Virus record (IMG/VR): IMGVR_UViG_3300042874_000041
Coordinates: 1 to 43,299 of that record
Length of the DNA: 43,299 bases
Source of the DNA: a virus
Direction: 5' to 3' (one strand)
Part shown: piece by piece, positions 4,368 to 39,975 of the stretch
How the letters are laid out: each line of letters opens with the position of its first letter
Numbering within the stretch: position 1 is the stretch's first letter
The notes under the pieces: model-generated
The model's database searches: none
What the model was told of the DNA's origin: nothing
Seen by the model: the letters and a program-made list of their open reading frames with translations, nothing else
Program-made: the position numbers and the translations under genes

Positions 4368-6221
4368 TTAGACGCGCTTACGCCGACGCAGGCGGATGTC
4401 CTCGATCCGAATCTCCCATGCACCAGCGCAGAATGCCACATCCGGATCGTGCGCGCTGAAGCCCAACATGAACCCCCCAGCCAACGCCAGCACGCTGTCT
4501 GCCCGATGTGCCCGAGGCAGCGGCACCGCATACTCCGTCAAGTTGTAGCCCTGCTCACCGGACGAACGACCGGCGAGGATGACCAACGAATTGAACAATA
4601 CATTGCCAAACACATCGCTCACGAAGAACCGGAACGAAGGGGTGTCAGCGATGCCGATGGGGGCGACAGTCTGGGTCGAGCGCACATGGGCACGGAACAC
4701 CGCCTCAAACAACTCCTCCCGATCTTCACTCGTCGGTGACGGGATGGTCATGCGCGTGCGGCGGAAGTACCCCACGTTCACAAACCCGTACGCTGCGACC
4801 ATAGCATTCGTGGCAGGGACCGGAGTGAAGTTCTGAGAAATGAGGCCGCCGCTTATGCTGTCCTCCTGGGGGAACAGCACCGGTGAGCGCGGGAACACTG
4901 ACGAGAAGCCCGCAGAGGTCAGGTCATACGACTCGGTCGTAGCTGCGCCATATGCAGGGAGGGTTGCGGTGGTGGTGTTGGTCGCGCCTTCCACGTTGAA
5001 GGCGAGCTTCGCGCCCGACGCCAGCGGCGGAGTGATCCACCAATTCAGCGACGTGTCGGGGTCAACATACTCGCCCAACGGAGCCGTGATGTCCGCCCAG
5101 CGAGCGTATGGAGCATAGAAGTAATCCTCCCACTTCGGGCAAGCCAGCGTGGTGCTGATGTCAGGGTTGACGCGCCCCATGATCGGGGTGGGAAACAGAT
5201 ATTCGTTATTCAGGTACCCGACCAGAGGCTCCAGAATGTGACGACCAACCCCCAGCACTGCACGCGGCGACTTGCGGACGAAAGCATACTTGTCGTAGTG
5301 CGCGTTATTCTCTTCCAAGTTGCTCAGGTTGAGCAGATAGACATGCACCATCGCCAAGCGCCGACCGGCATCGACAGCCTGTGGCACGATCCGATTATAT
5401 TGACCACCAAGCGCCAAAGCCGCGTGGTGGTACGCACCGGGCACCGCGAGGTGACCCCCGTCAGTTGACCGGTGCTGGATCAGCGCCGTTGGATTCAACA
5501 AGTTGCGATTCGTGTCCGACATCGGCGGCAGCCCACGACTCGGGATGCGGTCGCCATGGAACACCACGCTGAACGAATGGTAGCTGGCAAACTCCGGAAC
5601 GGCGGGGCTCCGCCCGATGCTGACAGCCAGCCCACCTTTGCCGAGCGACACGAAGACGTTCCCCACCACCAGCGGGGCATACCCAGCGGAGCCAATGAGG
5701 GATGCCCACTCCGGGCGATTGGTCGGAAGCCACTTGTGGTTGTAATAGACCGCGCCGTTGGCGTACGAGGCCCACGGGCTGGTCCCGCCCCCCATGCCGT
5801 AGCCTTCGGTCCCGAATGAACGCCAATACTGCTCAGACCGGAACGTGGTCACGTCACAGGTCGTCGCCGGTCGAGCGTACAGGTCGAATGCGAACGTCTC
5901 CCCGGAGTACCCATCACTGGTCGGTATCCCCTCCCCAGAATACCGCATGCCGAGGCAGGGGCGATAAACAACCCCGTCAACTGTGAAGGTGTCAGCCGAG
6001 GGGAAGTCGAAGAAGAACACGAACGGGACTAAGCCGCCAAAGCCATACAGTCCTTCCTCATACCGCGAGTCGAGCGCATCGTAGGACGAGCACAGCGGGA
6101 GGGGGACCATGCCAGCCCGAACCAACGCCTTGGCCGCCAAATGGGCGTACGCTGCCTTGGTCAATGACCGCACAGCGGTATCGTGGACCGTCTTCGGAGA
6201 GATCGCGGAACCGTAGCTCAT
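4368..6221 (-). CDS. Virion-associated protein of unknown function, 617 aa
   Basis: I do not recognise a family. The sequence is rich in Tyr, Phe, Gly and Pro, with many short predicted strands and few charged helices, which suits an extracellular structural protein of the tail tip or baseplate. It has no signal peptide or membrane segment. The N-terminus is helical (MSYGSAISPKTVHDTAVRSL) and could anchor it; the last residues are very basic (RIEDIRLRRRKRV). It starts with ATG 10 bases after the 595-aa gene and ends 3 bases before the lectin-like 790-aa gene, so the three probably form one co-translated set of tail-tip or adsorption proteins. That role is inference from position. Confidence 0.55.
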   Translation of the reverse strand: MSYGSAISPKTVHDTAVRSLTKAAYAHLAAKALVRAGMVPLPLCSSYDALDSRYEEGLYGFGGLVPFVFFFDFPSADTFTVDGVVYRPCLGMRYSGEGIPTSDGYSGETFAFDLYARPATTCDVTTFRSEQYWRSFGTEGYGMGGGTSPWASYANGAVYYNHKWLPTNRPEWASLIGSAGYAPLVVGNVFVSLGKGGLAVSIGRSPAVPEFASYHSFSVVFHGDRIPSRGLPPMSDTNRNLLNPTALIQHRSTDGGHLAVPGAYHHAALALGGQYNRIVPQAVDAGRRLAMVHVYLLNLSNLEENNAHYDKYAFVRKSPRAVLGVGRHILEPLVGYLNNEYLFPTPIMGRVNPDISTTLACPKWEDYFYAPYARWADITAPLGEYVDPDTSLNWWITPPLASGAKLAFNVEGATNTTTATLPAYGAATTESYDLTSAGFSSVFPRSPVLFPQEDSISGGLISQNFTPVPATNAMVAAYGFVNVGYFRRTRMTIPSPTSEDREELFEAVFRAHVRSTQTVAPIGIADTPSFRFFVSDVFGNVLFNSLVILAGRSSGEQGYNLTEYAVPLPRAHRADSVLALAGGFMLGFSAHDPDVAFCAGAWEIRIEDIRLRRRKRV

Positions 6222-6231
6222 AGGTCAACCT

Positions 6232-8019
6232 TCAGGGGGTCGCGGGGATTGACACAGTGTCAGCGGTGTACTCGATGGCGAGATTGGCAGTGCGGCCACC
6301 ATCCGCGATCTGCGAGACGTAGTATTCGATGCCAGTCACCTCGTCGATGAGATTGACGAAGGGGATGAGGGTGTGATCGACCACGGCGAACTTCGCCATG
6401 CGACGCCACCGCCGAATGTCAAACACCAGCAGGGTGGTGTCGGGAGCATAGAAGTTGAACCCGTCACCAGCATTCACACCAACGTCCACCCAATCACCCC
6501 AGGACTGCCGGAGCAGCATGGGCGAGATTCGGTACTTCCCATCCCGAGGTGTCTGAGACAAACCGAACGTGTAGAGGGTGCCCAGCATTGAGCCATCCCG
6601 GATCTGCGTGATGGCGGCTCCCAACACGTTGTCCATCGGGCCGATGGACATCACCGAATCGTCCACCACCACCGGGGTGTCGAAGGAGACGGCTTGGTGC
6701 CCACGCACCGAACGCGGTTGCAAGTTGGAGGTGAAGTTACGGTTGCCTGCGTCGGCCACGGAGAACCGCTGGTTGCGGGTAGCGGTGAACTTGAGATCCC
6801 CGAACAGGTCCATGGGCACACCCTGGCTGGTCCAGAAGACCCGCGCATCGTCAGTGCCGAAAAGTTCAGGCATGGGCTCAAAGGTTGCAATGAACCAGTG
6901 CGCCAGATTCACCTTCTCGCCGTCGCGCCCGCACTCGCCAAAGAACCCGTATTCACCAGCGTAGAACTGGAACGTGTTGGGGGCGGTGTCGGAATAGACG
7001 ATCTCGATCTGGTGCGCCGCAAATGAGGAAATCTGATTGCCATATCCGGACGGGAATTGCAGGAATGTCCGAATGACGATCGTGGCGTTGACGGTGTCAT
7101 TGAAGACATGGATGCCGCAGTGCTGCCACGGTCCATCACCGTTGAAGGTCCAACGATTCTGCCACTTGGCAGTGACGTTCAGGCTCGCGGCTCCATTGAT
7201 GGCAGCCACCAGATTGGCCAGCGTATCCTCGACGGTAGCACCGCGAGTGACCGAGACAGCACCGCCGCCCACACCGATGGCACCACCGCCTCCGGTCATC
7301 CCCTCAACCACGATGTTGGCCCCCACCTCTGACAGGGCCACGTTGCCAGCCACGCCAGCCACATCGTTGACCAGCAGCACCGAATTGAGCGGGCCGACGT
7401 TCGCCGTGATCGCCAGTGTAGGCGCGAGATTCACCACCGCTGACAAGTTCGAGAGCGTGGTGGACAAGTCGCCACCGATGATGACTTGCCGGAGAGTGGC
7501 CGTTTCGACCACAGACGCATCGCTGTCGAACTCGAAAGTGACAGCAGGGTTCACGCCGTCATTCACCACCACCGTATCGCCATCCGCAGGCTGGCCGAGG
7601 AAGGCAACCTTGCCGCGTGCAGCCGCAGCCCCCGCCTCGAACTCGAAGACCTTGGCAGGATTGGTGCCATCAGAGATCGTCACCGAATTGGCATCGAACA
7701 CGTCCAAAGCGTTCAAGATGATCGAACCCGTAGCCTTGACCGTTGACGAACCGCCCGACATGCCAGCGATGGTGATGCGGGAGTTGGGATCAACCTTGGT
7801 GATGGCCACGTTGCCGGAGGCTCCGACCGCATCGTTGGTCAGCACGATGGTCCGACGATCCGAGCGGACGAACAAGCGGTTCAGCGCAGTGTCCCACGAC
7901 GGGCGCTCCCAGCCAGTGCCCAGGAGCATCGCCTCTATGGCATTCATGATGTTGACGTTGGTGTGCCCGAGGCCCACCGCGTCGTATGTCCACAGGGCGC
8001 GTTTCCATTCAGCAGGCAT
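6232..8019 (-). CDS. Virion protein with sheath-shared beta modules, 595 aa
   Basis: Start chosen at ATG 8019 (MPAEWKRALW), which has GAGG about 8 bases upstream; an in-frame ATG at 8064 has no such site. Residues ~60-245 contain tandem beta modules: ISDGTNPAKVFEFEAG, then NDGVNPAVTFEFDSDASV with TLRQVIIG, bracketed by GASGNVAI...GMSGG and GVAGNVAL...GMTGG. Nearly the same modules are inserted in the tail sheath protein of this window. Residues ~290-595 form an unrelated C-terminal part with many aromatic residues that I do not recognise. The position between tail chaperone and lectin-like genes suggests a baseplate or tail-surface protein. The stop lies 18 bases beyond a strong copy of the palindrome. 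Confidence 0.6.
   Translation of the reverse strand: MPAEWKRALWTYDAVGLGHTNVNIMNAIEAMLLGTGWERPSWDTALNRLFVRSDRRTIVLTNDAVGASGNVAITKVDPNSRITIAGMSGGSSTVKATGSIILNALDVFDANSVTISDGTNPAKVFEFEAGAAAARGKVAFLGQPADGDTVVVNDGVNPAVTFEFDSDASVVETATLRQVIIGGDLSTTLSNLSAVVNLAPTLAITANVGPLNSVLLVNDVAGVAGNVALSEVGANIVVEGMTGGGGAIGVGGGAVSVTRGATVEDTLANLVAAINGAASLNVTAKWQNRWTFNGDGPWQHCGIHVFNDTVNATIVIRTFLQFPSGYGNQISSFAAHQIEIVYSDTAPNTFQFYAGEYGFFGECGRDGEKVNLAHWFIATFEPMPELFGTDDARVFWTSQGVPMDLFGDLKFTATRNQRFSVADAGNRNFTSNLQPRSVRGHQAVSFDTPVVVDDSVMSIGPMDNVLGAAITQIRDGSMLGTLYTFGLSQTPRDGKYRISPMLLRQSWGDWVDVGVNAGDGFNFYAPDTTLLVFDIRRWRRMAKFAVVDHTLIPFVNLIDEVTGIEYYVSQIADGGRTANLAIEYTADTVSIPATP
6250..6262. promoter_or_regulatory. Strong palindrome copy TGACACAGTGTCA
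   Basis: Perfect 6+1+6 inverted repeat just before the stop of the 595-aa gene, read there as Asp-Thr-Val-Ser. The neighbouring ATT on the plus strand extends the consensus. Proposed protein-binding site. Confidence 0.5.
7285..7842 (-). repeat. Tandem beta modules shared with the tail sheath gene
   Basis: Codes for residues ~60-245 of the 595-aa protein. The unit has the pattern DG-x-NP-x-VTFEF, then VVETATLRQVIIG, then a GNVA...GANI...GMTGG end. The block at 10940-11650 in the sheath gene carries the same pattern, including TFEFDSDASVVET and TLRQVVIG with one or two substitutions. DNA identity is visible around 7470-7600 against 11300-11420. Confidence 0.7.
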
Positions 8020-21000: not shown

Positions 21001-21720
21001 TCACACCCTATGGTGGTCGATGTTAGGCGCAAGAGTGGCCAGAGGCCCAGCGACCCGAAGGGTATCAATCCGCCAGACCCCCTTCTCGCCGTAGGGCATC
21101 CGACCTTTGAGCAGACTGATGTACTCCGGGAAGCGAATGTCCCGGCCCATGGACCACTCAGAAGCCACTGATTCAAGCCAGGGGTCGTACACGCCAACGA
21201 TGTGCCAATCCCCCGCAGAATCGAACAGCAGCAGCGAACAGGGGGTGTCCCCTTGAGCCAATATCACCCGGCAGACCTCTCGCTCCGGCACTTCCAGCAG
21301 AGTAGTGACGCTCAACTCCGGCAGTGCCTCGGCCTTGGCGATCCAGTCCACCATTGACACTGTGTCACCGAGGGAAGTCTGCAAGCTCCGCAGAGCTTCC
21401 AGGTACGCCTCCTTCCAGAGCCGTCGAGCGTCAGTCACCACCTTGACCGATTGCACCTCCTCCTCCGTTTCCGGGGGGAGCAGATTCACGTTTGCGCCAT
21501 CAGGGCGGTCGGTCAGCACGAAGCCGCCAGGAGCTTCGACGAGACGTCCATACACCATCTGGATCGCGGGTAGTCGTTGATCCACAGGCAAGCGCCACCA
21601 GACCCCCCGGCCAACCAACGCACCCCCAGCAACCGGTAAGACGAGATCAATAGGATGCGCGTACGGGCGTGATGCAGACGAGATCATCAACCCAGAAACC
21701 AACGCGTCGAGGATACTCAT
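21001..21720 (-). CDS. Unknown protein between polyprotein and head genes, 239 aa
   Basis: ATG overlaps the stop of the 2527-aa gene (ATGA). The N-terminus is hydrophobic (LDALVSGLMISSASRPYAHP) but too polar to be a clear membrane anchor. The middle is helical (ARRLWKEAYLEALRSLQTSL) and the C-terminal third has mixed strands (CSLLLFDSAGDWHIVGVYDP). A strong palindrome copy is read here as Asp-Thr-Val-Ser. Family unknown. Coupling to the polyprotein suggests a functional link to it. Confidence 0.55.
   Translation of the reverse strand: MSILDALVSGLMISSASRPYAHPIDLVLPVAGGALVGRGVWWRLPVDQRLPAIQMVYGRLVEAPGGFVLTDRPDGANVNLLPPETEEEVQSVKVVTDARRLWKEAYLEALRSLQTSLGDTVSMVDWIAKAEALPELSVTTLLEVPEREVCRVILAQGDTPCSLLLFDSAGDWHIVGVYDPWLESVASEWSMGRDIRFPEYISLLKGRMPYGEKGVWRIDTLRVAGPLATLAPNIDHHRV
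21355..21367. promoter_or_regulatory. Strong palindrome copy TGACACTGTGTCA
   Basis: Perfect inverted repeat with ATT on the plus-strand flank, within the 239-aa gene. Confidence 0.5.
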
Positions 21721-24700
21721 TGCGTCACCAGTACCTGTTCCAGCGGTTTACCGGCGAAGGTCGAGATCCCATGCTGCTTGCACAATGCGATGGCGTCCTG
21801 CCGCTCAGTCTCCGAACTGAAAACAGCGAACGCCAGATACTCTCGGAAATCCACGTCATGCCGAGCCACGAACTGCCAGTGGCTCGACGCACCGACCGAC
21901 TCCGTTTTCTGATTGAGCCCTGCATCGACCCACTTCTTCGGATCGGAGTAGCGCGCCTCCGTCCACTTGCCGTAAGCGTCACCGGGCCCGACGACGTACA
22001 CGTCGGCGCGGAGCACGAGGTCGATGTGGAAGTACAGGTGGCTCGCGTGCTTCTTCCCGAGCTTCCGCATCCCCATGAACACGCCGGTCGCACCACCGGA
22101 AGCAAGGTCCGCCCCCAAGGATACACCCGTCATCGGGATGCCGGTGAAAGGCCGAATCTGATTGGCGAGCAACGCACCGTTATGTGGGATCGACTTCTGG
22201 AATATGTTCAATGTGCCACCACCCGTGCAGGCGTGAGCGATATACACATCCGGACCCAGCAGATCCCGGATCGACTTCGCGGTGTAATCCATCCGCAACG
22301 TCCGGAAGTATCCCGCGCCACGCGTGTACGAGGGCGCAGCATTGTAGCGGGGGTCCGCCAGCAACTCCTTCACCGTCACCCCGAGACGATTCGCCAGGGC
22401 CGACCGTAGTTTGACCAGCGCGTCCTCCTTGCTCCCTTGCTGGAACAGTCCGACAGCCGCATCAACCTGCGCCCCCAACTTCGGCACAGCTTCAGCCGAG
22501 ACGCTGATGCGCTCAGGTGTCGTGATGTACATCTGCTTCCGCAGAAACAGATACTCCCGATCTTCTGGCGAGGCAGGGTTCATCCGCACATCCGTCGCCT
22601 TCTCGAACACACGCAGAATACGCGCCACCGTTGCCGCAGACGGCGCTTCAGGCAACACCGCCCACACCAAACCGAAATACACGCGCACACCTGCTGACAT
22701 GGAACCGGAGGGGCACATATACAGCGTCACAGACGGCATCGACTTCAGCCGAATGACATACTGTTTCGAGCCTTCACCGGAGGGGGCGGACACCACCGCG
22801 TCCGTGACGACCACCCGCGTTCCAGCCGTAGTGCTCGCGGGGACTGAGAAGGAGCCCTGCTGCGTGACCGTGAGATCCTGAAGCGTCTCGTCAACTTCTT
22901 CAGCTTCCTTCGGCTGGAACTTGAATTGGATGAAGTCGTCCAGCACCTTCGTCTTCCCGAGGTGCGGAGTCGGATTCGCCAGCACCGCCTCAATCGACTC
23001 AATGTACGACAGGTACTCCTTGGCCATGGCCTGCACGATCCCGGTAGGGATGTTGCTGTATTTGCCGACCCCTGAAGCTGTCGCGGACACCAATTCTTTC
23101 AGCTTCGGCAGCATCGACTTGTACGCTTCGATCTTGCTCGCATTGAAATTGGTGTCGGCCTCCTTCACACCGCCGCTCTTGTCCACCGCCGACAAGTGAT
23201 GGTTGATCGTCTTCGCGGCATTCACGATGGACTCGTAGAACGTGTCCACCACCAGCGGCGCGGGGCCGGTCTTTCCACTGACCACCTTCACCACCGCAGC
23301 GAATCGAGCCTCAATGGCCTTCGAGGTTTCATAGGTCACGCGGAACGTGATGAGCGTGCCCGGGGTAACCTTGCCGCCAGACTTGTAGTCCACAGCCTTG
23401 ACCATCACCTCCTGGTTCTCAATCGCGTCGCTGTCGATCTGCAACGCCTTCCCCTGCCAGCCTGACTTGAGAGCGTCATCAATATACTTCGATTCCACCT
23501 CCGTGAACTCCAGCGCCTCCTCGGGCGGCAGCTTGCCCACCGGAACTTGCTCGAGTTGCGTGTCATCCGGGGCTCCGACCATCGGCACGGGCCACTTCCA
23601 CGATTCATTGCGAGCCTTCGCCAGCATCACCATGATCTTTGTCCACTCGATGACGTAGGTGTCACGACGCTGGATAAGAGCCTCGCGGAGCTTGGGGCGG
23701 AGCTTGGCGGCACCCGCCCCGCAAGCCTCCTGCCACACGTCCAACGCCGAATCAAGGACCGCCACATTAAGCGACGACACCGCGAGAATGGACTTGGCGA
23801 ACCGGGCGAATGCTGACTTGGGGATCTCCCGAGACAACGCCGCCCAATCCGACAGTAGTCGCTTGCTGATGGCCTTGCCGATCACGCCTGTAGGCGTGGT
23901 GCCAGGGTCCAGCGATTCACCACCACCGGACAACATGAACCGGAAGGCTTGCCCTTTGTCGATGACCACCAGCCGCCCATCGGGGGCACGCAGCCAGTTC
24001 GACACGCCGCCATCGTGGTCGCCTAGGAACATGTCCACCGCGTGCTGCGCCAGGATCTCACCCTTATCATTGTCCGACAGGCTCTCGTAGTCACCCTGCG
24101 TGAGAGTCTGCGCCCCCATCACCTGTGGCTGCAACGAACCAACATCACCAGCGAAGGATGCCCGCCGCACGGGGGGGGTCTTCCCTGGGCGCAGGTGATT
24201 GATGATCGTGAACGCTGCGGCTTCCGCACCCGTCCGGAAATGCAGAGGGTTCTCGACAGATGGCTTGAACACATACTGCGCCCCATCTGGGCCTTGGAGG
24301 ACAAGGTTCGGCTTCGACCCACCCGACAGCTTCTTGCCCGTATTCTTGAGCATCGACTCCGTCAATGACTGCATGTCACTGAATCGAGCAGGGCTGTCCC
24401 ACTCCACCACCACGGTCGGGATCGGCTGCACCACGTCAGGCGTAGCCACGTTAACAGGATGGCTCAACGCCGGATTCGTCTTTTGCTTCCCAGGCGCGGC
24501 TATCCCCCCCATTGACCCCGGCTTGAGCACGGCCTGGGCAACCGGAGCGCCCTTGGCAACAGTGTCGAGCGCGGTCTGCAACAGCACGGTGTCGAGGATG
24601 GAATGGTGAGACTTCAATTGGAGCCACGCCGCAAACGGCAACTTGCTCAACGGCAACGAATGCGCGTACGGGACGCCCAACTTCGCCAGAACGCCCCGAG

Positions 24701-27700
24701 CTTGCCCCATCGACGCGGTGAACTTCTGACCAGGGCCCATCGACTGTGCCGTCTGCGCCAGGATGGCCCAATCAGAGGGGTGCAACGCAGGGACGTTATC
24801 CTCATCCTCGGGGGGTAGCGGACTCGACACCGCCAGTTCCTCGTCTGTCAAGGTACGCATGACCCCGGTGTGCATATCCGTGAACAAGTTGACCTTCACG
24901 GACCCACACCGAACGGTGCCCAGGTAAACGTATGCCCCCACATTCGGGACCAACACGCCAGTCCCGTACATCAACCCCACACCGGAAGCTGTCGCAGTGG
25001 AGGCGAGCGTGATCTGCTCCTTCGGGTCTTTCTTCACCACCTCCCAGATTGCACCGTAGGGGATGAGCGGGAGCGCAGAAGGCGGGACCGGGTATGGAGC
25101 CTGAGCGAACAAGCTGTGCAACGCATGCGCCACGTTCAACTGCTTGGCCGTATCGAAGTCAATAATCACAGTCGGAATGACCGTCACGGTCATGCCCGTG
25201 AGCGACTTCTTCGGATGCACCGTCACCAGCTTCCCATCACTGGCCTGCTGCACATAGATCGCGCCGACCATGTTGTAGCCGAGCACCATACCGCACACGG
25301 ACCCGCCAGGAATCGCAGGGTCGTCCAGGCCACCGAAATGCGCCAGTGTGCCGGGCGCGGGGAAGCCCGAAGACACCAGAGATTGGTACTTCGTGGCCAT
25401 ATCGCTGAACGACAAACCATGCGCCTTCCAAGCCTTGATCCCGTCAGCAGTGACGAAGTGGTCATGGCCGCCAGCGTCGGGGGTGTCCAACATCCCGAAC
25501 AACGCGCCGGAACCTGCTGTCTGCACTTTGACCGTACCGACCCCCGCAGCAGCAGCAGCGGGGAGATAGCCCGGCATCCCGTTCTTCACCAGCCAACGAA
25601 CCGTGTCCGCCAAGACGCGCTTATCGACCGGGGAGAGTGGCTTCGCCCACGGCAACGTGTTCACATACCCGAGGAAGACGTTGTCTTGCTCATCGCCCGT
25701 AGCACCCGCCAGAATGGAATCGAACTTCTTCAAGGGGCGAACCACGACAGCGTCCGTCTCGGACCCGGCGTTGTAAGGGGTGCCGCCAAGGAAGGTGGCA
25801 AGATACATACGAGCGAGCGAAGTGCTGCGCTTATAATCCCCCAGGTGCCCCTCAAGCCGAACTTTTAGCCCTGTCTCCTCCCATGTTTCACGGCGTGCGG
25901 CCTTCGTCAGTGACTCGCCTTTGTCTACCCCGCCCTTGGGGAACGTCAGCGTACTCGCAAACCCCCCCACCGGATGCACCAGAATCACAGACGGGAACTT
26001 CATCGAGAATTGCGACTTGGCCCCGGTGATGACCGCGCCTGGAGGCAGCACGATGACCGTACCTGCGACCTTCCGCAGATTGCCCTCTTGGTACGGGGGC
26101 TCATCAACGTAGTCGTGGGTGTCAGTGAACGGCCCATTCTCGAATGCCGCACCATCGCTGTACACCTTCACCAACGCGCTGCCGCGTGCGAAGACGACGC
26201 CTTCGTCTTCGTCAATGAGCGCGGGGGTGGCGGATACCTGCACCAGCAACTCGATCTCCTTGGCTGGCACCACGAACAATGACACGCCCACCCCATCGGA
26301 GAGCGTATTCATCAACACCGCGCCACCGTGGGACCAACCGACCAACTTGCCGGGCAGTCCGTGGAACAGCGTCCCAGGGAAATACGGAGGGTCTTTCGGG
26401 GCGTTCGGGGTTGGAGTGAAAACAATCAGCCCGCCGCCCTCGACGGCGGCTTGCAGCGCCGCAATCGGCACACGGTAGTCGAGCTTGCCAGAAACGCACA
26501 CCCCGCCGTACACCTGCAATGACCCGATGACTGACAGAACCGGAGGGTTGCCCTCCACCGTTGGGGCGATCAGCGAACCTACCGCCTTGAACGATACGCT
26601 CCCGCTCTCGGTGTCCTGCATCGCATACAGCAATTCACCGGTCGGCTTGCGGAGCAACCCTGCGATGACCGTGATCTCATTGTACGACTGACCGGCCCTA
26701 TACACATACGCCTCAAACTCATCAAAGGACCGGACATCCCAGCCCATCTCGATGGCGGCCTTGGCAGCGGACGGCGTAGCCCAGGGGGCGCTGTCGTCCT
26801 TGTACGGCTTCGGAGCACTCGCCGGAGCGGGGATGTCCTCTGTGGTCGCCACGGGCGCGGCACTGGCGACAGCCAACACCCCTTCAGCCACAAACACCAA
26901 CCCGGCCTGCCCAGGTGCGTCTGCACCGGTGGAGATCAGCGCCTTGGTGCCTGCGTTGGGGACGGTGAACGCGCCAACGATCCAACCAGACTTGCCAGAA
27001 ACATTGACGGAGGTGCCGAGGGGGAACTTCGGCTGCGCCTGCACGAAAGGGAAAGGGGCATAGAACGTGGTGACGTCAGCGCACCAATCGGCCACGGAAA
27101 TCGGCTGAGGGTCGAAGCCCGTGATCCCGGTGAAGGGGACGGCTTGGATCAGCGTGCTCCCGTAGTCGCGCAATGCACGCGGGATGAGATAGACGCCTTT
27201 CCCATCTTCTGACAACCCCACAACGATGTGCTTGAGCTTGCTCACGGGGGGGAGCCCGAAATCCACGTCGAACTTCGGCAACACCGTGACGAGCGATCCG
27301 ACCACCGGTGTGGCCTGGACCTTCGAGGGCACCATTGCGATGAGCGCAACCTTGAGCGCACCCTTGGCCAGCATCCCCACCACGTCGGTATCCGACTCCG
27401 AGATCAGTGACTCATCGTCAAAGTCCTGGAACACCAGGATGATGTCATCCACCTCCACCTCGACTTCCTGCCCGTCCTGGTCCTCCTTCGTGGTGGTCTG
27501 CACCCGGAACGCGTGCTGGAGGCTGAACTTCTTCGTCGAACCCTTGAACAGGTAGTGGTCGTACGGCTTCGACGACGGCAGCAGGCTGTGGGCCTTCGCC
27601 ATCGTTTGGGTCAACTCCGGATCGAACGGGATGAACGCCTTGAGAAAGTCCGCTTCGTACTTCTCACCCAAGTGGGCCATGATCGACGAGGGGATGCCGG

Positions 27701-29300
27701 TATTCGGCGCAGCCACCACGCTCGCCTGATTGATCGGGAGCCCCGCCGCCACCTCCAACTCCGGTGGTTTGCCGTACAGCGTGCCCGGCTGCTCGTAGTG
27801 CCCATGCGTGACCTTCAAATCACCCGTCTTCAAATCCGCGTGAAGCTCATACTCAGACTTGGACACCAGCACCCCACCCGGAAGCCGGAAATAGTGCAGG
27901 TGCAGCTTGCCTGCCGCTCCCAAATCCCTCACCCAATAGCCCAGGTACACCAGCTTGGTCTTACCTGCCGTCTCAAACTGTGACCAGATCCCATACGGTG
28001 TGCCAGCCGCAGCGGCGTACTTGAGAGACTGCAATCCATCAATCGAAGCCGGGGAGAGGTTGTCTCCTCCGTCCTTCTTGAGCGCCGCAATCGTAGCCGA
28101 ATCGCTCATGGTCTTCTGGAGCTTCACCCCTTCCACAGGCAGCACATTCTTTGCCGCGAACTTTGAGAATGGCTCATGCACATCCGACCCGGTCGGAATG
28201 CTGTCGAGGATGGTCTGCCAATCCCCTTTGGCCCACGCAGCGTTGAAAACATGGAACAGCGAACCCGCGAGCTTATTCTCAGCGGTCCACCGACGCGCCT
28301 TGCCGAGCATCTTCCTGGCGAGGGTGCTATTGACGGTGTGCCCAAAATACGCCTTGGTCAGCAGCCCGAACACCTCCTCGGTGATCCCATCGAACTTGGT
28401 CCCGGTCGGATTGACGTAGCGAGCGCCCAGCGGGTGGAAATACATCAAGGCAGTGTTGATCGCATCATTGAAATGCGGCGAAGCCGGGAGCTTGTCCGCA
28501 TCGAGCGCCGGGGGTTTGAGCGACGGTTCATTGACCACCAGGAGCGTGTCAGGGGCCTCAGCAGCCAGGACGAAATACGCGACGAAGGGAGCCCATACCT
28601 GCTTGGCCGCAGCTTGCGGTGATGCGCTCTTGAGCTTCACCCACTCCAGGCTCTCGGACAGCGTGCCGCCCTGCATATCACGCACGTCCATCAACGCCGC
28701 CACGCGCAACTCCGGAGCGCCTTCGCTCAACAGCTTCATCGCCAGCTTGAATGGGTCAGGCGCGTGGTAGCGACGATAGATCGCATTCCCCACCGCAGGG
28801 GCGGCAACGCCAAAGGCACTCGGCAGATCGACGAGGTTGCCGGTGATGGTCGTGTACGATTCGATGAACTTGGCGACACTCTCAGGCGTGAAGCCGTATT
28901 CATACCGCCACGCTTCGAGCGCGAAGCGGTCGTACAACTCCTCGGTGGTCAGCTTGAACAATTCCGTCTGCGGGTCTTCCTCGACCAGCTTCTTATCGAC
29001 GGCATCCGCGTGAATCTTCTCCGACCACAGCCTCGCAGCCTCACCGCCGTGCAAGGCCCACGAACGAATGGCGGCGCTGTCCTTCTCGGTCTTCTGGAAC
29101 ATCGACTCCCGCACCATCGCCGTGTTATTCGTAGTGAGAAAGCGGTACACCTTCTCGACCACGTCCAGTGACACAGCGCCAATCAACGCCTCGGCCACCC
29201 CAATGCCGTACGTCCCGTCCAGCGGGGACTCCCGATGCAGAGCCAGAGCTTCGGCTGCCAGGGTCTTGGCCGCCTTCGGGGGGTCGAACGTCAGGGGCAT
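21717..29300 (-). CDS. Giant multidomain polyvalent protein with NUDIX and kinase-like domains, 2527 aa
   Basis: The largest gene here. Residues ~1-400 are helical. Between ~430 and 1080 several beta-barrel-like segments follow one another. Residues 1123-1145 form a complete NUDIX box (GGVDKGESLTKAARRETWEE then TGL; G-x5-E-x7-R-E-x2-E-E-x-G). At ~1679 a lysine in QYVFKP, at 1761-1768 DHDGGVSN and at 1781-1783 DKG give the pattern of a HipA/PI3K-type kinase fold (Lys, D-x-x-x-x-x-x-N, D-x-G). The last ~170 residues (FTGIPMTGVSLGADLASGGA, then VFMGM and a YFHIDLVLRADVYVVGPGDA strand pair) resemble ADP-ribosyltransferase-like phage domains, weakly. Phage polyvalent proteins of this kind are thought to be packaged and injected with DNA. 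It lies just upstream of the head genes. Functions are inferred from motifs only. Confidence 0.72.
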   Translation of the reverse strand: MPLTFDPPKAAKTLAAEALALHRESPLDGTYGIGVAEALIGAVSLDVVEKVYRFLTTNNTAMVRESMFQKTEKDSAAIRSWALHGGEAARLWSEKIHADAVDKKLVEEDPQTELFKLTTEELYDRFALEAWRYEYGFTPESVAKFIESYTTITGNLVDLPSAFGVAAPAVGNAIYRRYHAPDPFKLAMKLLSEGAPELRVAALMDVRDMQGGTLSESLEWVKLKSASPQAAAKQVWAPFVAYFVLAAEAPDTLLVVNEPSLKPPALDADKLPASPHFNDAINTALMYFHPLGARYVNPTGTKFDGITEEVFGLLTKAYFGHTVNSTLARKMLGKARRWTAENKLAGSLFHVFNAAWAKGDWQTILDSIPTGSDVHEPFSKFAAKNVLPVEGVKLQKTMSDSATIAALKKDGGDNLSPASIDGLQSLKYAAAAGTPYGIWSQFETAGKTKLVYLGYWVRDLGAAGKLHLHYFRLPGGVLVSKSEYELHADLKTGDLKVTHGHYEQPGTLYGKPPELEVAAGLPINQASVVAAPNTGIPSSIMAHLGEKYEADFLKAFIPFDPELTQTMAKAHSLLPSSKPYDHYLFKGSTKKFSLQHAFRVQTTTKEDQDGQEVEVEVDDIILVFQDFDDESLISESDTDVVGMLAKGALKVALIAMVPSKVQATPVVGSLVTVLPKFDVDFGLPPVSKLKHIVVGLSEDGKGVYLIPRALRDYGSTLIQAVPFTGITGFDPQPISVADWCADVTTFYAPFPFVQAQPKFPLGTSVNVSGKSGWIVGAFTVPNAGTKALISTGADAPGQAGLVFVAEGVLAVASAAPVATTEDIPAPASAPKPYKDDSAPWATPSAAKAAIEMGWDVRSFDEFEAYVYRAGQSYNEITVIAGLLRKPTGELLYAMQDTESGSVSFKAVGSLIAPTVEGNPPVLSVIGSLQVYGGVCVSGKLDYRVPIAALQAAVEGGGLIVFTPTPNAPKDPPYFPGTLFHGLPGKLVGWSHGGAVLMNTLSDGVGVSLFVVPAKEIELLVQVSATPALIDEDEGVVFARGSALVKVYSDGAAFENGPFTDTHDYVDEPPYQEGNLRKVAGTVIVLPPGAVITGAKSQFSMKFPSVILVHPVGGFASTLTFPKGGVDKGESLTKAARRETWEETGLKVRLEGHLGDYKRSTSLARMYLATFLGGTPYNAGSETDAVVVRPLKKFDSILAGATGDEQDNVFLGYVNTLPWAKPLSPVDKRVLADTVRWLVKNGMPGYLPAAAAAGVGTVKVQTAGSGALFGMLDTPDAGGHDHFVTADGIKAWKAHGLSFSDMATKYQSLVSSGFPAPGTLAHFGGLDDPAIPGGSVCGMVLGYNMVGAIYVQQASDGKLVTVHPKKSLTGMTVTVIPTVIIDFDTAKQLNVAHALHSLFAQAPYPVPPSALPLIPYGAIWEVVKKDPKEQITLASTATASGVGLMYGTGVLVPNVGAYVYLGTVRCGSVKVNLFTDMHTGVMRTLTDEELAVSSPLPPEDEDNVPALHPSDWAILAQTAQSMGPGQKFTASMGQARGVLAKLGVPYAHSLPLSKLPFAAWLQLKSHHSILDTVLLQTALDTVAKGAPVAQAVLKPGSMGGIAAPGKQKTNPALSHPVNVATPDVVQPIPTVVVEWDSPARFSDMQSLTESMLKNTGKKLSGGSKPNLVLQGPDGAQYVFKPSVENPLHFRTGAEAAAFTIINHLRPGKTPPVRRASFAGDVGSLQPQVMGAQTLTQGDYESLSDNDKGEILAQHAVDMFLGDHDGGVSNWLRAPDGRLVVIDKGQAFRFMLSGGGESLDPGTTPTGVIGKAISKRLLSDWAALSREIPKSAFARFAKSILAVSSLNVAVLDSALDVWQEACGAGAAKLRPKLREALIQRRDTYVIEWTKIMVMLAKARNESWKWPVPMVGAPDDTQLEQVPVGKLPPEEALEFTEVESKYIDDALKSGWQGKALQIDSDAIENQEVMVKAVDYKSGGKVTPGTLITFRVTYETSKAIEARFAAVVKVVSGKTGPAPLVVDTFYESIVNAAKTINHHLSAVDKSGGVKEADTNFNASKIEAYKSMLPKLKELVSATASGVGKYSNIPTGIVQAMAKEYLSYIESIEAVLANPTPHLGKTKVLDDFIQFKFQPKEAEEVDETLQDLTVTQQGSFSVPASTTAGTRVVVTDAVVSAPSGEGSKQYVIRLKSMPSVTLYMCPSGSMSAGVRVYFGLVWAVLPEAPSAATVARILRVFEKATDVRMNPASPEDREYLFLRKQMYITTPERISVSAEAVPKLGAQVDAAVGLFQQGSKEDALVKLRSALANRLGVTVKELLADPRYNAAPSYTRGAGYFRTLRMDYTAKSIRDLLGPDVYIAHACTGGGTLNIFQKSIPHNGALLANQIRPFTGIPMTGVSLGADLASGGATGVFMGMRKLGKKHASHLYFHIDLVLRADVYVVGPGDAYGKWTEARYSDPKKWVDAGLNQKTESVGASSHWQFVARHDVDFREYLAFAVFSSETERQDAIALCKQHGISTFAGKPLEQVLVTQ
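24366..24378. promoter_or_regulatory. Palindrome copy TGACTGCATGTCA
   Basis: Inside the giant gene, read Asp-Met-Gln-Ser. The same 13 bases recur at 36094-36106. Confidence 0.4.
27408..27420. promoter_or_regulatory. Weak palindrome copy TGACTCATCGTCA
   Basis: Inside the giant gene, read Asp-Asp-Glu-Ser in an acidic stretch. Arms match but the centre does not; may be chance. Confidence 0.2.
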
Positions 29301-29342: not shown

Positions 29343-30575
29343 TTATCGAGGCGGGGTCAACTTCTCCCATTTGGCATCCTCGCCATGCACCGTGGTCGCC
29401 CACCGCCGCCGAATACGGTCACAGAAGACCGGCGAAAGCTCGGTGCCCATGCACACGCGCCCCGTCTCCTCGCACGCCATCAGCGTCGAGCCAGAGCCCA
29501 GGAAAGGGTCCAGGACGAGATCCCCGTCAGCGGTATGCCGCTCCACGAACGTCCGAATAAGCGCCACGGGCTTCTGCGTCGGGTGGTATTCATTCCTACG
29601 CGGGCGCTGGCAGCGAACGATGTTCCAACACTCGGGCAGCAGCTTCGGGGTCAGGCCCTTCCGCCACCCGACCAGAAACGGCTCCGTCTGGTAGTGGTAA
29701 TCGGTGGACTTGAGCGCCATCGGGGAGATCGCAGGGATGTCCTTCACCCAGGCCCCCAGCCATGCCAGCGCACCACCGCCAGCAGTCCAGGCCGCCAACG
29801 TATCCTCCACCACCCGCGACGCATAGAAGGACACGCACGGCCCATCAGTGAACTGCGTGATGACCGAGAACCACTCGGTAGCCATCGCCAACCATTGGTC
29901 AGCAGGCATATCGTCATTGGCAATCGACTCGCCCTTCTCCGACTTGTACGCCACATTGTACGGTGGGTCGGTGATGCAGGCAGAGGCCGGGCGCTTGGCG
30001 AACATCCGCTTCACCCCGGTCTGCATGTCCCCGCACCAGACGGTATGCCGACCGAGCTTGTACGCAGTGTTCAGCTTCGACACCGGAGGGGCTTCGGGCT
30101 TCGCGTCCGCGAGATCCTTCGCGTCATCCGCATCCTGCTGGTCCCTCGCTTCGAGTTTCCCAACCTCGGCCTTCACTGACGCCAGCAGCGCATCGAAACC
30201 GGCGAGGCTGGGGTTCTCCATCTTGGCGAGCATGCGCTGGATTTCAGGCGCGGCTTTGGCCGCGTCGAACTTCCCCTGCGTAGCGGTGTTGTTCATAGCG
30301 ACGTTGGCCATGCGTTCAGTGAGATCGTCGAAATCCACCACCACGCAATCCGCTGCCTTGACGCCTTGCAGGATGAGCGCGGCGACGCGCTGGTGGCCAC
30401 TGACCAATACCTGCTTGCCGCCATGGACATTCACCACAGGCATTTCAAGCACACCGAACTCGTTCAACGATTCGCGCAACCCTACCATCGCCGCCTCGGA
30501 CACTCGACGCGGGTTATAGGTCGCTGCGTCCAGACTTGCGAGGTTGAACTTCTTGACGACATGATCCGTTTTCAT
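29343..30575 (-). CDS. ParB-domain DNA methyltransferase (N6-adenine or N4-cytosine), 410 aa
   Basis: Residues ~10-100 are a ParB/Srx-like nuclease-type domain (NLASLDAATYNPRRV, then VLVSGHQRVAAL at 56-67). Residues ~168-400 form a beta-class methyltransferase: motif IV TDPPYN (202-207), HPTQKPVAL (331-339), SAM-binding DPFLGSGST (356-364), and GTELSPVFCD after it. All catalytic motifs are intact. Such ParB-MTase fusions are common in phages and modify phage DNA, possibly against restriction. The start overlaps the stop of its paralogue by four bases. The target base cannot be told from sequence. Confidence 0.88.
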   Translation of the reverse strand: MKTDHVVKKFNLASLDAATYNPRRVSEAAMVGLRESLNEFGVLEMPVVNVHGGKQVLVSGHQRVAALILQGVKAADCVVVDFDDLTERMANVAMNNTATQGKFDAAKAAPEIQRMLAKMENPSLAGFDALLASVKAEVGKLEARDQQDADDAKDLADAKPEAPPVSKLNTAYKLGRHTVWCGDMQTGVKRMFAKRPASACITDPPYNVAYKSEKGESIANDDMPADQWLAMATEWFSVITQFTDGPCVSFYASRVVEDTLAAWTAGGGALAWLGAWVKDIPAISPMALKSTDYHYQTEPFLVGWRKGLTPKLLPECWNIVRCQRPRRNEYHPTQKPVALIRTFVERHTADGDLVLDPFLGSGSTLMACEETGRVCMGTELSPVFCDRIRRRWATTVHGEDAKWEKLTPPR

Positions 30576-31756
30576 TGTTCGACCTCCGGTGCCATCGCCA
30601 GACTGCTGCCAGGACCATGCGCGAACAGCGCCCAGCGAAGACGCACCGCATCCATGTCTCGTGCTGACCAGACGTAGCCGCGCAGCTTGAGTTGCAGTTT
30701 CTCTGCCGCGATCACCGACGCGCCAGACTCCACATTGGTGTCGAGCACCACATCACCGGCCTTGGCAGAGTTGGCGAGCACATCCGCGTAGCAGCACACC
30801 GGGAGGTCTGACTTCGACTTCGGTGCCGCGAAGACATTGCCAAGCGCCGACTTCCCGAACCACTGCCGGGGAGCGCCGTCCCTCCTGAAATACAAAGCCG
30901 CCGACACGATGGCGTCCGCATAGGGGTCTGACGCGTCCCCCTCGTCATTCACCCACAGAATAGTCGAAGACACCAGACCCTTGTGCGCGGATACCCTCCG
31001 AGCGAGGTGAGGCGTTTGCGCGTACGGGGCATGCGCGTACAGCCACCCATCAGTGTACCGCAGCAACGGAAGAATGAGCGCGTCCAGATACTCGTCCGTG
31101 GGCAGACCCTTCGCCCGCACGCGAGTGATCCCTACGTCGGCGTTCCGCTCCAGCATCGGCGGGCGATCCACCAGCGGAGGCGCACCGCACATCAGCAAAT
31201 GCCCACCCAGCCGGTAGCAGGCACCTTCACGCGAGAGCGCCTTCGTGCGCGACACCTTCACCGTGTCATCGTCACCCATCTTACCCGTCAACGGTTCCTG
31301 GCGATCCGGAAGTGTGATGGCTCGGCTGACCGTCTTGAGCAGGTTGTCGAGCTTGAGATCGACGAATGCGCTTTCTGCGCTGGTCCCCTTCGCCGCGTTC
31401 TGGATCTGGCACAGCAAGTCGCGGGTCAACTCCGGAACGAACTCACCTTGGATGGCCCGATTGTTCAGCGCGAAGTTAGCCTGCCGCTCGGCATCATCAT
31501 CGAACTCCACCACCACGCATGGAACCTCCTTCACGCCCTGGCGGCGCAGGGCCTCCACTCGCTGGTGACCGCCGATCAGCCGGTAGCCATTCTTTCGCTT
31601 GTTGACGACCGGGAAGGCGAGGACTCCGAACTGCTCCATGGACGACACCAGCCCACGCATGGCTTCGGCGGTGATCGTCCGCGCATTGTAGCTGGCGGGC
31701 TTGAGCGAATCGACGGGCAGGGTTTGAATGCGCGTTTGCGCGTAAGGCTTTGGCAT
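30572..31756 (-). CDS. ParB-domain protein with catalytically dead methyltransferase domain, 394 aa
   Basis: A paralogue of the next gene. The ParB-like domain is well kept (DSLKPASYNARTITAEAMRG; GYRLIGGHQRVEALRRQG at 58-74). In the second half the alignment continues (YRLGGHLLMCG at 181-191 against YKLGRHTVWCG), but the TDPPYN site reads TRVRAK (211-216) and DPFLGSGST reads DTNVESGAS (339-347). GDVVLD and the final RLRWALFA are kept. The SAM-binding and catalytic residues are therefore lost while the frame is intact, so it is not a decaying pseudogene. A DNA-recognition partner or regulator of the active enzyme is plausible. ATG start 32 bases after the 152-aa gene. Confidence 0.8.
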   Translation of the reverse strand: MPKPYAQTRIQTLPVDSLKPASYNARTITAEAMRGLVSSMEQFGVLAFPVVNKRKNGYRLIGGHQRVEALRRQGVKEVPCVVVEFDDDAERQANFALNNRAIQGEFVPELTRDLLCQIQNAAKGTSAESAFVDLKLDNLLKTVSRAITLPDRQEPLTGKMGDDDTVKVSRTKALSREGACYRLGGHLLMCGAPPLVDRPPMLERNADVGITRVRAKGLPTDEYLDALILPLLRYTDGWLYAHAPYAQTPHLARRVSAHKGLVSSTILWVNDEGDASDPYADAIVSAALYFRRDGAPRQWFGKSALGNVFAAPKSKSDLPVCCYADVLANSAKAGDVVLDTNVESGASVIAAEKLQLKLRGYVWSARDMDAVRLRWALFAHGPGSSLAMAPEVEQ

Positions 31757-36719: not shown

Positions 36720-38873
36720 TCAGCCCTCCACTGCAACTTCACCGATTCCGTCAGGGGACGGGGTGAGCTTGAATGATTGAAACTGTGCCCCGAACGCGCA
36801 GCCCTGAAGCACACGCAGAGCGCCGCAGAAGACCTCCCGGATCTCAGCATCAGCCGCGATGTTGGCACGCTGGCGAAGCATGCGCTTCCACTGCGCCACC
36901 GAGGCGGAGAAGACGCATTCGGTGTACAGGGCGTTACCCAGGTAGCCGCGTGCGGCTCCGCGTGCCTGCTTGCGGGCAGTGAACTTCTCGACGCCCTTGG
37001 CGATCAACCAGGGTTCGAGAGTCTGCACTGCGGCACGGTACGCCCGCTTGGCTTCATCTTTGACATGGTTGACGCGCTGCATCAGCGTGAGCGCCGTCTG
37101 CTCGCCATTGGGCGCACGCTGCACTTCTTCCGTCTTGGCGTACGCCAATATCAACGGGTGATCGACCCACTGGCTCGCAGACTCATCGACGTAGCGCGTG
37201 CTGCGCTGGCTGACCGCCGTGCGGAACTTGTGACGAACGAGTTCATGCGAAAACCCGCGACTCCCTGTAAGAAACAGCGACACCCACCGCTCTTCGTCGT
37301 GCTCCAGCAACGTGACCCGCGACACATGCGGCATCCCGTCGTCGCTATGAATGCAGAGCTTCACCGCCTCTGCGATCTGCGGCGCGAGCAAATGCGCTTC
37401 GTGCGCGATGCAATCCGCCACATGCTGCACCGCCAAAGGAACCACGGGCGGCAGTAGCGCAGCCCACTCCCGCGCCGACCGGATGTTGACCGTGGTCCGG
37501 AGAGTGAACTCGTCCACCAACAGCACGAACACGCCAGGGCGATTCAACACCGACTCCAGAATCTCGACGTACATGTGCCGACTCGGCACTTTCACCTGCA
37601 CGGTGAACACGAAGTGCTCATGGACGCTATTCCCCGTCCACACGGCCTTGCCATTCCGCCGCACATACAGCGTCCCATTCGGCACCGTAGCGCAGAACAC
37701 CTCTCCTTCCCACCCCTCCTCCCAACTCCCCACCGTGGTGGACCCTGCAAACCTGTTGATCTCAGGCATCAACGAACGCCGGATCACGTTATTGCGATAC
37801 AGGGGGCGTTCACGCTCCAGGTATGAATCCGCCATTGAAATATCAGAAGCGAGCCCGATGTGCAACGCCAACTGTTGAAACTGACCTGACAGCATCCGGC
37901 TCTTCGTATCGTAGCACACCCCTGTTTCGGACACTGAACCATCCGAGTTAATGAGCCCGTCGTATAGCGCCAACAATTGTGCCCGCGACCAACCCAGCAG
38001 CACACCCGGAGGTATCACTTTCTCCCCATCGTCGTCATACATCGCGTCGAACAGCGCACGGTGTGAGTCAGGGACGCGGAGCACATAGGTATCATTCGCC
38101 AATTCGTCCAGATCCCATCCTGCCGCAGCCGCCTGTGCGTAGAGGAATCTGATCTTCCTCTCACGCCTGAGACGAAACCGAACCGGGCGAGCACGGGGTC
38201 CAATGCAGCCATCCCCGATTGCAAACCCGAGCAAGCAGGCGATAGGTGCAGTTATGCCCGCACAGTCGGGGGCGTCCCACTTACCGGACTTGACGACTGC
38301 GTAAGACCGCTCCAGATCCTTCGCCTCCACCAACTCCCAGGGGGCATTCCTCGCCCGGCCTTCCTTGGTAGTCGTCGGCATCACCAGCATCCGGTGATTC
38401 GGAGTCACCAGCAGGTCCACATTGCTCCCAGCGACCCGATACATCCGACCCGTGTGAACATACCGATGCAGCTTCGTCGCCCTGGCGTACTCAATCTGGT
38501 GCGTCTGCGGGTGCATCGAACAGAACTGATCGGACTCCACCACATCCTCCCACGCGACCCACCCCCGTGCAGTCAGCACCTCAGTCTCCCCATCGAAGCA
38601 CCCATGGTTCACGTCCACCAAATGCTTGTGGTATGCGGCGCTCGGGCGACCGCGAGCGAAGGAATCGTAGCAGGCACGACCCGCGATCTCGCACAGACGC
38701 TCAGTGTGCGTTCCCACATCCTGCCCGGCGTCAGCAACCGCCCGCAACGCCCAGGCTTGCCACTCTGCCGTACCACAGGTTTCACCGATCTCATCATTCT
38801 CCGGCAACAACTGCGGCGGGATGACCGGAGGGGTGGAGTAATCGTAGACCAGGGTAGCGGTATTCAGGCTCAC
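36720..38873 (-). CDS. thyX: Flavin-dependent thymidylate synthase ThyX interrupted by an intein, 717 aa
   Basis: ThyX makes dTMP from dUMP with FAD and methylene-tetrahydrofolate. Start is GTG 38873, overlapping the upstream stop (GTGA), with AAGGA ~9 bases before. The N-extein is residues 1-91 and the C-extein 416-717, giving a 393-aa spliced enzyme. The C-extein begins SVHEHFVFT, the conserved ThyX S-x-x-E-H site, and carries RHKFRTAVSQRSTRY (547-561), a variant of the ThyX signature RHR...S.RY with one extra residue. The N-extein has a helical AGRACYDSF...HL stretch. The intein interrupts the active-site region, so activity requires splicing. It lies near thymidylate kinase, which fits a dTTP supply module. 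Confidence 0.87.
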   Translation of the reverse strand: MSLNTATLVYDYSTPPVIPPQLLPENDEIGETCGTAEWQAWALRAVADAGQDVGTHTERLCEIAGRACYDSFARGRPSAAYHKHLVDVNHGCFDGETEVLTARGWVAWEDVVESDQFCSMHPQTHQIEYARATKLHRYVHTGRMYRVAGSNVDLLVTPNHRMLVMPTTTKEGRARNAPWELVEAKDLERSYAVVKSGKWDAPDCAGITAPIACLLGFAIGDGCIGPRARPVRFRLRRERKIRFLYAQAAAAGWDLDELANDTYVLRVPDSHRALFDAMYDDDGEKVIPPGVLLGWSRAQLLALYDGLINSDGSVSETGVCYDTKSRMLSGQFQQLALHIGLASDISMADSYLERERPLYRNNVIRRSLMPEINRFAGSTTVGSWEEGWEGEVFCATVPNGTLYVRRNGKAVWTGNSVHEHFVFTVQVKVPSRHMYVEILESVLNRPGVFVLLVDEFTLRTTVNIRSAREWAALLPPVVPLAVQHVADCIAHEAHLLAPQIAEAVKLCIHSDDGMPHVSRVTLLEHDEERWVSLFLTGSRGFSHELVRHKFRTAVSQRSTRYVDESASQWVDHPLILAYAKTEEVQRAPNGEQTALTLMQRVNHVKDEAKRAYRAAVQTLEPWLIAKGVEKFTARKQARGAARGYLGNALYTECVFSASVAQWKRMLRQRANIAADAEIREVFCGALRVLQGCAFGAQFQSFKLTPSPDGIGEVAVEG
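37629..38600 (-). other. Intein with LAGLIDADG homing endonuclease inside ThyX (324 aa)
   Basis: Begins at Cys92 (CFDGETEVLTARGWV, block A) and ends at Asn415, followed by Ser416. Block B is VTPNH (156-160). Two LAGLIDADG-type helices are visible: LLGFAIGDG (214-222) and ALYDGLINSDGS (302-313), spaced as in two-repeat enzymes. The end reads YVRRNGKAVWTGN then S, so the penultimate residue is Gly instead of the usual His, and the block F His is not seen. Splicing chemistry residues Cys1, Asn-last and Ser+1 are present. Confidence 0.85.
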
Positions 38874-39304
38874 TTGAGATAATCCTTGGCAATGGCAGCG
38901 ATGGCAGCCAGTTCTTGGGGGGTGTACGGCTTCTTGAGGTCGCCCGCGTAGGGCTGGACGAGCTTCATGGTCAGCAGCCAGGAGGTCAGCGTGGTCGAAG
39001 GCGGCACCACTGCGCCGCGCATTTCGATCTCGCCAAGAACGCGGCCGTACTTGTCCACTTCCTTGGAAACGAGCCAGGGAGACGCAGGGCCAGCCCGTAG
39101 CGCAGTGAACCACTTCTCCACGCACGACTTGACCAGGAGCCCGACTTCCTTCTCCGCCGCCCCACTGACTTCCGGAGCGTTCACGCCGTTGACGCGCACC
39201 GACACCTTGCGCTGGATATAGAACCCGAGGTCCGCATAGCCCTCCAGCGTATCGCCGTCGAGGACGCGGATGAGAGTAAAAGGGTACGCGAAGACGAGAG
39301 CCAT
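38870..39304 (-). CDS. Staphylococcal nuclease-like protein, 144 aa
   Basis: Start at ATG 39304 (MALVFAYPFTLIRVLDGDTL) with AGGA seven bases upstream; a longer frame overlaps the kinase gene. Catalytic residues of the family can be placed: DGD (16-18), Arg37, APE with Glu45, DKYGR with Arg88. The usual Asp before the T/A-P-E is Asn42 (NAPE), a form often seen in phage members. No signal peptide, so it acts in the cytoplasm. It sits between thymidylate kinase and ThyX and overlaps ThyX by four bases. Nucleic-acid degradation or binding is likely. Confidence 0.75.
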   Translation of the reverse strand: MALVFAYPFTLIRVLDGDTLEGYADLGFYIQRKVSVRVNGVNAPEVSGAAEKEVGLLVKSCVEKWFTALRAGPASPWLVSKEVDKYGRVLGEIEMRGAVVPPSTTLTSWLLTMKLVQPYAGDLKKPYTPQELAAIAAIAKDYLK

Positions 39305-39312
39305 GTGGAGTC

Positions 39313-39975
39313 CTAATGGGCGGAGGGGACGAAACGAGCGAGCGACTTCCACACCACGTCCAGCACGGCCTCGGCTGAAAGGGCGGCATCGACATGGTAA
39401 TAAGGGGGCAGCACACGGCGATAGAGCGCCGCCACCCGCTCCATGTACACCCCAGCCATCGCTTCAAAGCGGTCCTCCTGGAAATCCTGCCCGCGAGCCG
39501 TAGCCACCCGCTGGAACGAATCGCGCACCGGAAGGTCGAGCAGGATCGGCGTGATACACGCCAACGGCAGCGGCGTGAAATCCAGATAGGTCTTGTTGAG
39601 CAGGGGCAGCGACACGCCCTGTGCGCCTTGATACGCGAGGGTGCTCCAGAACCACCGATCCACCAGCAGCACGGCCCGAGGCTCGGCCTGCACTGCATCC
39701 ACCAACTCCTGAAGCAGGAGACGACGAGCAGCCATGAACAGCAGCACTTGGGTCAGCACATCCAACGGCGGTTCTTTCGCTTTCAGCACCTCGCGGAGCT
39801 TCTGTGCCACAGGATGCGAACCAGGGTCGCGGAACATGCACACCGGCACGCCTTCGCCTTTGAACCGATCCCGTAGCCCAGCGAGCAACGTGGTCTTGCC
39901 GGAGCCGTTGATCCCTTCGACTACGATGGTCCGGCGAGCGACCTGTTCGAGTTGTTCTGGTGTCGTCAGTGACAT
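39313..39975 (-). CDS. tmk: Thymidylate kinase, 220 aa
   Basis: Phosphorylates dTMP to dTDP. P-loop GINGSGKTT at 21-29, the DR motif in VDRWFWSTLAYQG (105-117), and a lid-like ATARGQDFQEDRFEAM segment. FRDPGSHPVAQKLREVL replaces the usual F-x-R-E/D-P-G...G substrate motif. Length is typical of the family. ATG with AAGG nine bases upstream, four bases after the 89-aa gene. Together with ThyX and the SNase-like gene it forms a nucleotide module. Confidence 0.9.
   Translation of the reverse strand: MSLTTPEQLEQVARRTIVVEGINGSGKTTLLAGLRDRFKGEGVPVCMFRDPGSHPVAQKLREVLKAKEPPLDVLTQVLLFMAARRLLLQELVDAVQAEPRAVLLVDRWFWSTLAYQGAQGVSLPLLNKTYLDFTPLPLACITPILLDLPVRDSFQRVATARGQDFQEDRFEAMAGVYMERVAALYRRVLPPYYHVDAALSAEAVLDVVWKSLARFVPSAH

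Follow-up and report, generated by a model that had tools for sequence, protein, structure and literature searches.

What does a DNA methyltransferase that has lost its catalytic motifs do beside an intact copy of itself? The question arises from two adjacent genes in an uncultivated bacterial virus with T4-like structural genes (a gp23-type capsid protein, an S77 protease, a contractile sheath and a T4 baseplate); the window analysed here is its entire IMG/VR record, 43,299 bases. A preliminary description had proposed a tandem ParB-methyltransferase pair with one dead copy, and this holds: both open reading frames, here called D and A, are present, and the motifs of D are replaced as described. 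The locus comprises:

30572..31756, minus strand: D, a pseudo-methyltransferase of 394 aa, with a ParB_N domain and a degenerate beta-class methyltransferase domain
29343..30575, minus strand: A, an intact ParB-fused N6/N4 DNA methyltransferase of 410 aa (from Pfam, motifs and fold)
21717..29300, minus strand: the next gene downstream of A, for a giant protein of 2527 aa with a NUDIX domain

D is transcribed first and overlaps A in the sequence ATGA, which holds the start codon of A and the stop codon of D. The GC content at the third codon position of D is 0.76, like that of the neighbouring genes. The giant NUDIX protein is possibly a polyvalent, injected virion protein. Further along the window (36720-39698), a 992-aa open reading frame matches both ThyX (Thy1) and LAGLIDADG and, judged by these matches, is probably a thymidylate synthase split by an intein.

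Fusions of ParB with N6/N4 methyltransferases are common in phages (PMC12704722), and A is a plain member of this group (phrog_498; PF02195 plus PF01555), which includes phi1605 Amt, Javan630 and Vibrio D93. It matches phrog_498 at 5.3e-85 and N6_N4_Mtase (PF01555) with 82.7 bits, its ParB_N domain is below threshold in Pfam yet aligned throughout, and it has all the motifs by which a phage ParB-methyltransferase fusion is recognised. The features of A, the motifs being placed by sequence and alignment, are:

30312..30557, minus strand: ParB/Srx-like N-terminal domain, aa 7-88 (PF02195, 17.6 bits, under the cut-off)
29955..29972, minus strand: catalytic motif IV, TDPPYN
29568..29585, minus strand: motif X, HPTQKP
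29484..29510, minus strand: motif I, DPFLGSGST

D is a paralogue of A: aligned as the preliminary description had suggested, the two proteins are homologous over nearly their full length (27% identity, E = 6e-31). The corresponding features of D, the replaced motifs being placed by alignment, are:

31481..31732, minus strand: ParB/Srx-like N-terminal domain, aa 9-92 (PF02195, 39.5 bits; Foldseek to ParB/Noc; alignment; GGHQR kept)
31109..31126, minus strand: TRVRAK where catalytic motif IV (TDPPYN) stands, in a shorter loop
30797..30814, minus strand: KSDLPV where motif X (HPTQKP) stands
30716..30742, minus strand: DTNVESGAS where the SAM-binding motif I (DPFLGSGST) stands

Alignment with A indicates a deletion of ∼14 residues around TRVRAK in the catalytic loop, and in all D lacks motif IV, most of motif X, motif I and the acidic residue of motif II. 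It shares its domain order with the phrog_498 fusions, but the single-copy members of that family that we examined keep DPPY, and D does not. In the window D, Pfam finds nothing but ParB_N, whereas it finds N6_N4_Mtase in A. Nevertheless, we conclude that D descends from a methyltransferase, because its orthologues (described below) still match N6_N4_Mtase in Pfam, the best with 47.5 bits (G002), its profile matches CcrM (6pbd) at 1.6e-5, and its predicted fold matches CcrM and M1.HpyAVI with Foldseek E-values of 5e-10 to 6e-10. These matches rule out a chance resemblance. The best match of the window D is likewise phrog_498 (2.4e-35), with homology over both domains. In the AlphaFold models, which are of single chains with pLDDT of 73 and 75, the C-terminal half of D has the beta-class fold of these two enzymes and the N-terminal half matches ParB/Noc; the structural match to M1.HpyAVI is stronger for A than for D.

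The capsid protein led to relatives of the virus, whose records were then searched for D. Three more IMG/VR viruses have the D-A pair, with order and orientation unchanged and beside the same giant gene:

G002: IMGVR_UViG_3300037245_000806, 143 kb, carries the D-A pair
G003: IMGVR_UViG_3300020152_000130, 16.7 kb, carries the D-A pair
G010: IMGVR_UViG_3300028837_000819, 57.8 kb, carries the D-A pair

The window D is 40-42% identical to each of the three others. The preliminary description had allowed for relatives in which the first copy is intact, pointing to a recent lesion or a sequence error; the outcome is the opposite, since in all four viruses D is dead and its neighbour A is intact. The position of motif IV in D is occupied by VADMAFTCIAETK in G002, VADAAFSFVAGQK in G003 and VVDMAFTRIADPK in G010, and that of motif I by DPNMGTGAT, DIDVGRGAS and DVDVGDGSS, respectively. 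In two of the four pairs the genes are ∼240 bp apart and do not overlap, so that tight translational coupling is not universal.

In the four pair-bearing viruses the giant gene marks the cassette by synteny, although in G010 one small gene intervenes. Its homologues have 2334-2672 aa and the same neighbours beside them in all six relatives checked. Neither D nor A was found at the syntenic locus in G006, G012 and G015, whose records are fragments, so that the pair could lie elsewhere. On these four positives and three fragmentary negatives, D and A have so far been gained or lost together.

Wider searches added no D. Single D or A proteins, scanned against IMG/VR and GTDB genome contigs, gave no useful relative, these scans being too narrow; nor did a scan of genome contigs with a D alignment, and a final scan with the four-sequence D alignment gave no additional D. 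The phage and plasmid collections contained no D orthologue: the listed matches to D all had less than 30% identity, those examined were ordinary intact methyltransferases, and no phage record had two places matching a D query. Several candidates were rejected. The matches in L025-L030, and those examined in L092, L094 and L095, are ParB-only proteins; L089 and L091 are single active enzymes; and the twofold 'DNA modification methylase' of Streptococcus Javan492 looks like one split gene, being a single open reading frame in its relative Javan486. Two of these phage contigs (L027:8007-9124 and L030:4594-5711) each have two adjacent, overlapping ParB-only genes with no methyltransferase domains.

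A set of 23 proteins, comprising the four D, the four A and 15 phage ParB-methyltransferases as outsiders, was aligned and used for a maximum-likelihood tree. Motif IV, (D/N/S)PP(Y/F/W), is missing in all four D and present in all four A and all 15 outsiders. At the SAM site, no D keeps the F of motif I or the HP and K of motif X, and every D has replaced the E of motif II. DPPY, HP, the F and S of motif I and the E of motif II, which D has lost, do not vary in A and the outsiders. In the tree, D is one clade and A its sister clade, both apart from the phrog_498 fusions, none of the outsiders falling with them. Support is 100/100 for D, 92/83 for A on its own branch, and 100/100 for the two combined. 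The stem of the D clade is long, at 1.59 changes per column. The simplest history, as read from the tree, would be that the gene duplicated once in this lineage of viruses, that D lost catalysis along its stem and that it was then kept for a long time.

Retention is also evident within the genes. In the dead half of D, 4-fold degenerate sites are at chance identity, synonymous sites being saturated, whereas identity at codon positions 1 and 2 is 46-71%, where ∼26% would be expected; A behaves much alike. Judged from this difference between codon positions, the dead half of D is under purifying selection. In most comparisons D orthologues are as similar to one another as A orthologues are, the dead half of the window D being somewhat less conserved (33-34% compared with 38-42%). 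A further 57 positions are fixed among D and variable among A. This, together with the constrained codon positions, identifies D as a maintained protein. Decay into a pseudogene, a recent lesion or a misassembly would explain the lost motifs, but nothing else speaks for any of these; three other viruses have a dead D of the same family, with open frames and purifying selection, and these results refute such explanations. The earlier suggestion that D is selected as a non-enzyme is thus well supported.

The residues peculiar to D raise the question of whether it has acquired a different activity on the old Rossmann fold, with another cofactor or another transferase reaction. The near-intact motif I of D in G002 would fit this, as would residues fixed specifically in D, among them GY after motif I and LPV in place of motif X. 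However, the four D differ from one another in motif I, none of them retains the motif II acid or the HP and K of motif X, and the loop that replaces DPPY contains no new invariant cluster of catalytic appearance. We consider a new activity very unlikely. Scarcely more probable is that D is a decoy or inhibitor that competes with A, either in dimer formation or for sites, and thereby delays or restrains methylation. The anatomy of the locus is compatible with this, in that a dead homologue transcribed first could titrate A into inactive heterodimers, but D has gained fixed residues of its own and a basic charge, which inhibition alone does not need.

The difference in charge between the two proteins is general. 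All four D are basic, with pI of 8.1-9.9, those of the window (D_G000) and G003 just mildly so, and those of G002 and G010 having Lys-rich N-terminal tails; all A and the 15 outsiders are acidic (pI 4.6-6.5). The ParB domain also differs. Taken pair by pair, ParB_N scores are 39.5, 33.3, 23.9 and 26.1 bits for D against 17.6, no match, 16.0 and 20.6 for A, so that D scores higher in every pair; D_G000 and D_G003 are above the PF02195 cut-off and D_G010 and D_G002 below it. Eight single-copy relatives score 17.3-33.7 bits, and A is low against most of them. The sequence GGHQR, with the conserved Arg of the ParB phosphate motif, is found in all four D. The contrasts in charge and in ParB score reflect one duplication, not independent events. 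In charge and in domains the two proteins are complementary, with the weaker ParB half in A and the dead methyltransferase half in D. These patterns of charge and domain retention would agree with the earlier proposal, a plausible one, that D has a part in choosing targets or binds DNA in the way of ParB.

These properties could also belong to a protein that acts alone. D might be a ParB-like, NTP-dependent DNA-binding or nicking protein, such as a regulator or genome organiser, with its dead methyltransferase half as a DNA-binding scaffold and its position next to A a leftover of duplication. Its good ParB_N domain, with GGHQR kept, and its basic charge would suit such a role. ParB folds bind CTP, ATP or GTP and are often fused to methyltransferases in phages (PMC12704722), and for one ParB-methylase, from Bacillus cereus, non-specific nicking has been reported in work cited in PMC5512222. 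On the other hand, D and A are still neighbours in four viruses in which these proteins are only ∼40% identical, they are gained or lost jointly at the loci seen, and the whole methyltransferase half of D is constrained. A solitary role for D is thus possible but, in our estimation, doubtful.

A link between the pair and the palindrome TGAC-N5-GTCA, offered as speculation in the preliminary description, is not supported. The element occurs at 15 sites in the window against 1.2 expected, with 0-4 at other spacings up to 15:

1096, 6250, 9043, 12335, 13798, 16608, 19471, 21355, 24366, 27408, 33613, 35467, 36094, 39970, 42112: TGAC-N5-GTCA sites

Its strongest versions lie just upstream of gene starts, as the versions carried by relatives often do. 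In G012 the palindrome has the version TGACARWYTGTCA, usually followed by CCCGAAC and mostly intergenic; in G002 the version is TRACACWGTGTYA, and there the related element ACAC-N-GTGT (23 sites against 1.9) lies mostly between genes, in many cases 14-25 bases ahead of a gene start. The sites occur where no pair is found at the syntenic locus (seven, eight and five of them in G006, G012 and G015), and G010, which has the pair, has a single site, inside the D gene. We therefore reject the link; the elements look like lineage-wide operators or promoters at gene starts, given their positions. The most over-represented gapped palindrome in G010 (L067-L069) is AGGA-N5-TCCT, with 11 sites against 1.4 and the same 4-5-4 geometry, and from its form it could be a diverged operator.

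We favour, with guarded confidence, the reading in which D serves A as a partner subunit that binds DNA and has no catalysis of its own, the phage counterpart of METTL14 or MTA9. The precedents of EcoP15I and MTA1-MTA9 make it the reading with the best support. In the beta-class dimer of EcoP15I one Mod subunit reads the DNA and the other methylates it (PMC4490356), and MTA9 is a partner of MTA1 with an eroded NALW motif that binds no SAM and aids DNA binding (PMC9852454). On this model D and A would be duplicated ParB-fused beta-class methyltransferases that divide the labour. A, retaining its active site, would methylate DNA, probably at adenine N6 and presumably late in infection, as it sits among structural genes. 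D would have lost SAM binding and catalysis, though neither its fold nor its ParB domain, and would present a basic surface; it would most likely dimerise with A through the surface by which beta-class enzymes usually pair and provide either DNA binding or recognition of the site, a role that METTL14 has towards METTL3, MTA9 towards MTA1 and the recognising Mod subunit within EcoP15I. The physical D-A complex, DNA binding by D, and the methylated site and timing are all what we infer here. More tentatively, the viral enzyme may be an obligate heterodimer, with catalysis in one subunit and DNA reading by the dead ParB-methyltransferase, possibly nucleotide-switched through the ParB domain.

Pairs of active and dead methyltransferases are well known in eukaryotes, METTL3-METTL14 and MTA1-MTA9 among them. 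Like these, D and A are a paralogous pair in which one catalytic motif is eroded and both members are retained. The eukaryotic pairs differ in belonging to the MT-A70 family and having no ParB domain, and in that their complexes are experimental, whereas D-A is known from sequence and single-chain models. None of the eight D and A proteins has an MT-A70 match in Pfam, both being of the PF01555 type fused to ParB_N, and the resemblance to METTL3-METTL14 would be one of working only, not of family. EcoP15I Mod2 and CcrM share the methyltransferase fold and motif order (IV...X-I) with the D-A family, but they are dimers of identical active subunits; in D-A each role would belong permanently to one of two genes.

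The closest arrangements elsewhere are tandem, apparently active ParB-methyltransferase pairs, in the Acidithiobacillus phage AcaML1 (gp24-gp25) and in two IMG/VR contigs:

L006:2852-5667: AcaML1 pair
L088:about 4500-7260: pair in an IMG/VR contig
L090:1182-3891: pair in an IMG/VR contig

As in D-A, the genes run in one direction with an overlap of a few bases. Unlike D-A, both members keep motif IV (SPPY, then DPPY) and motif I. The AcaML1 pair falls elsewhere on the tree, indicating that it arose separately. No description of a dead/active phage or bacterial ParB-methyltransferase pair was found in the mainly open-access literature searched. A conserved dead/active pair in phages would offer a small system for seeing how a dimeric enzyme splits catalysis and recognition between two genes, and a handle on the role of the widespread ParB domain in phage methyltransferases.
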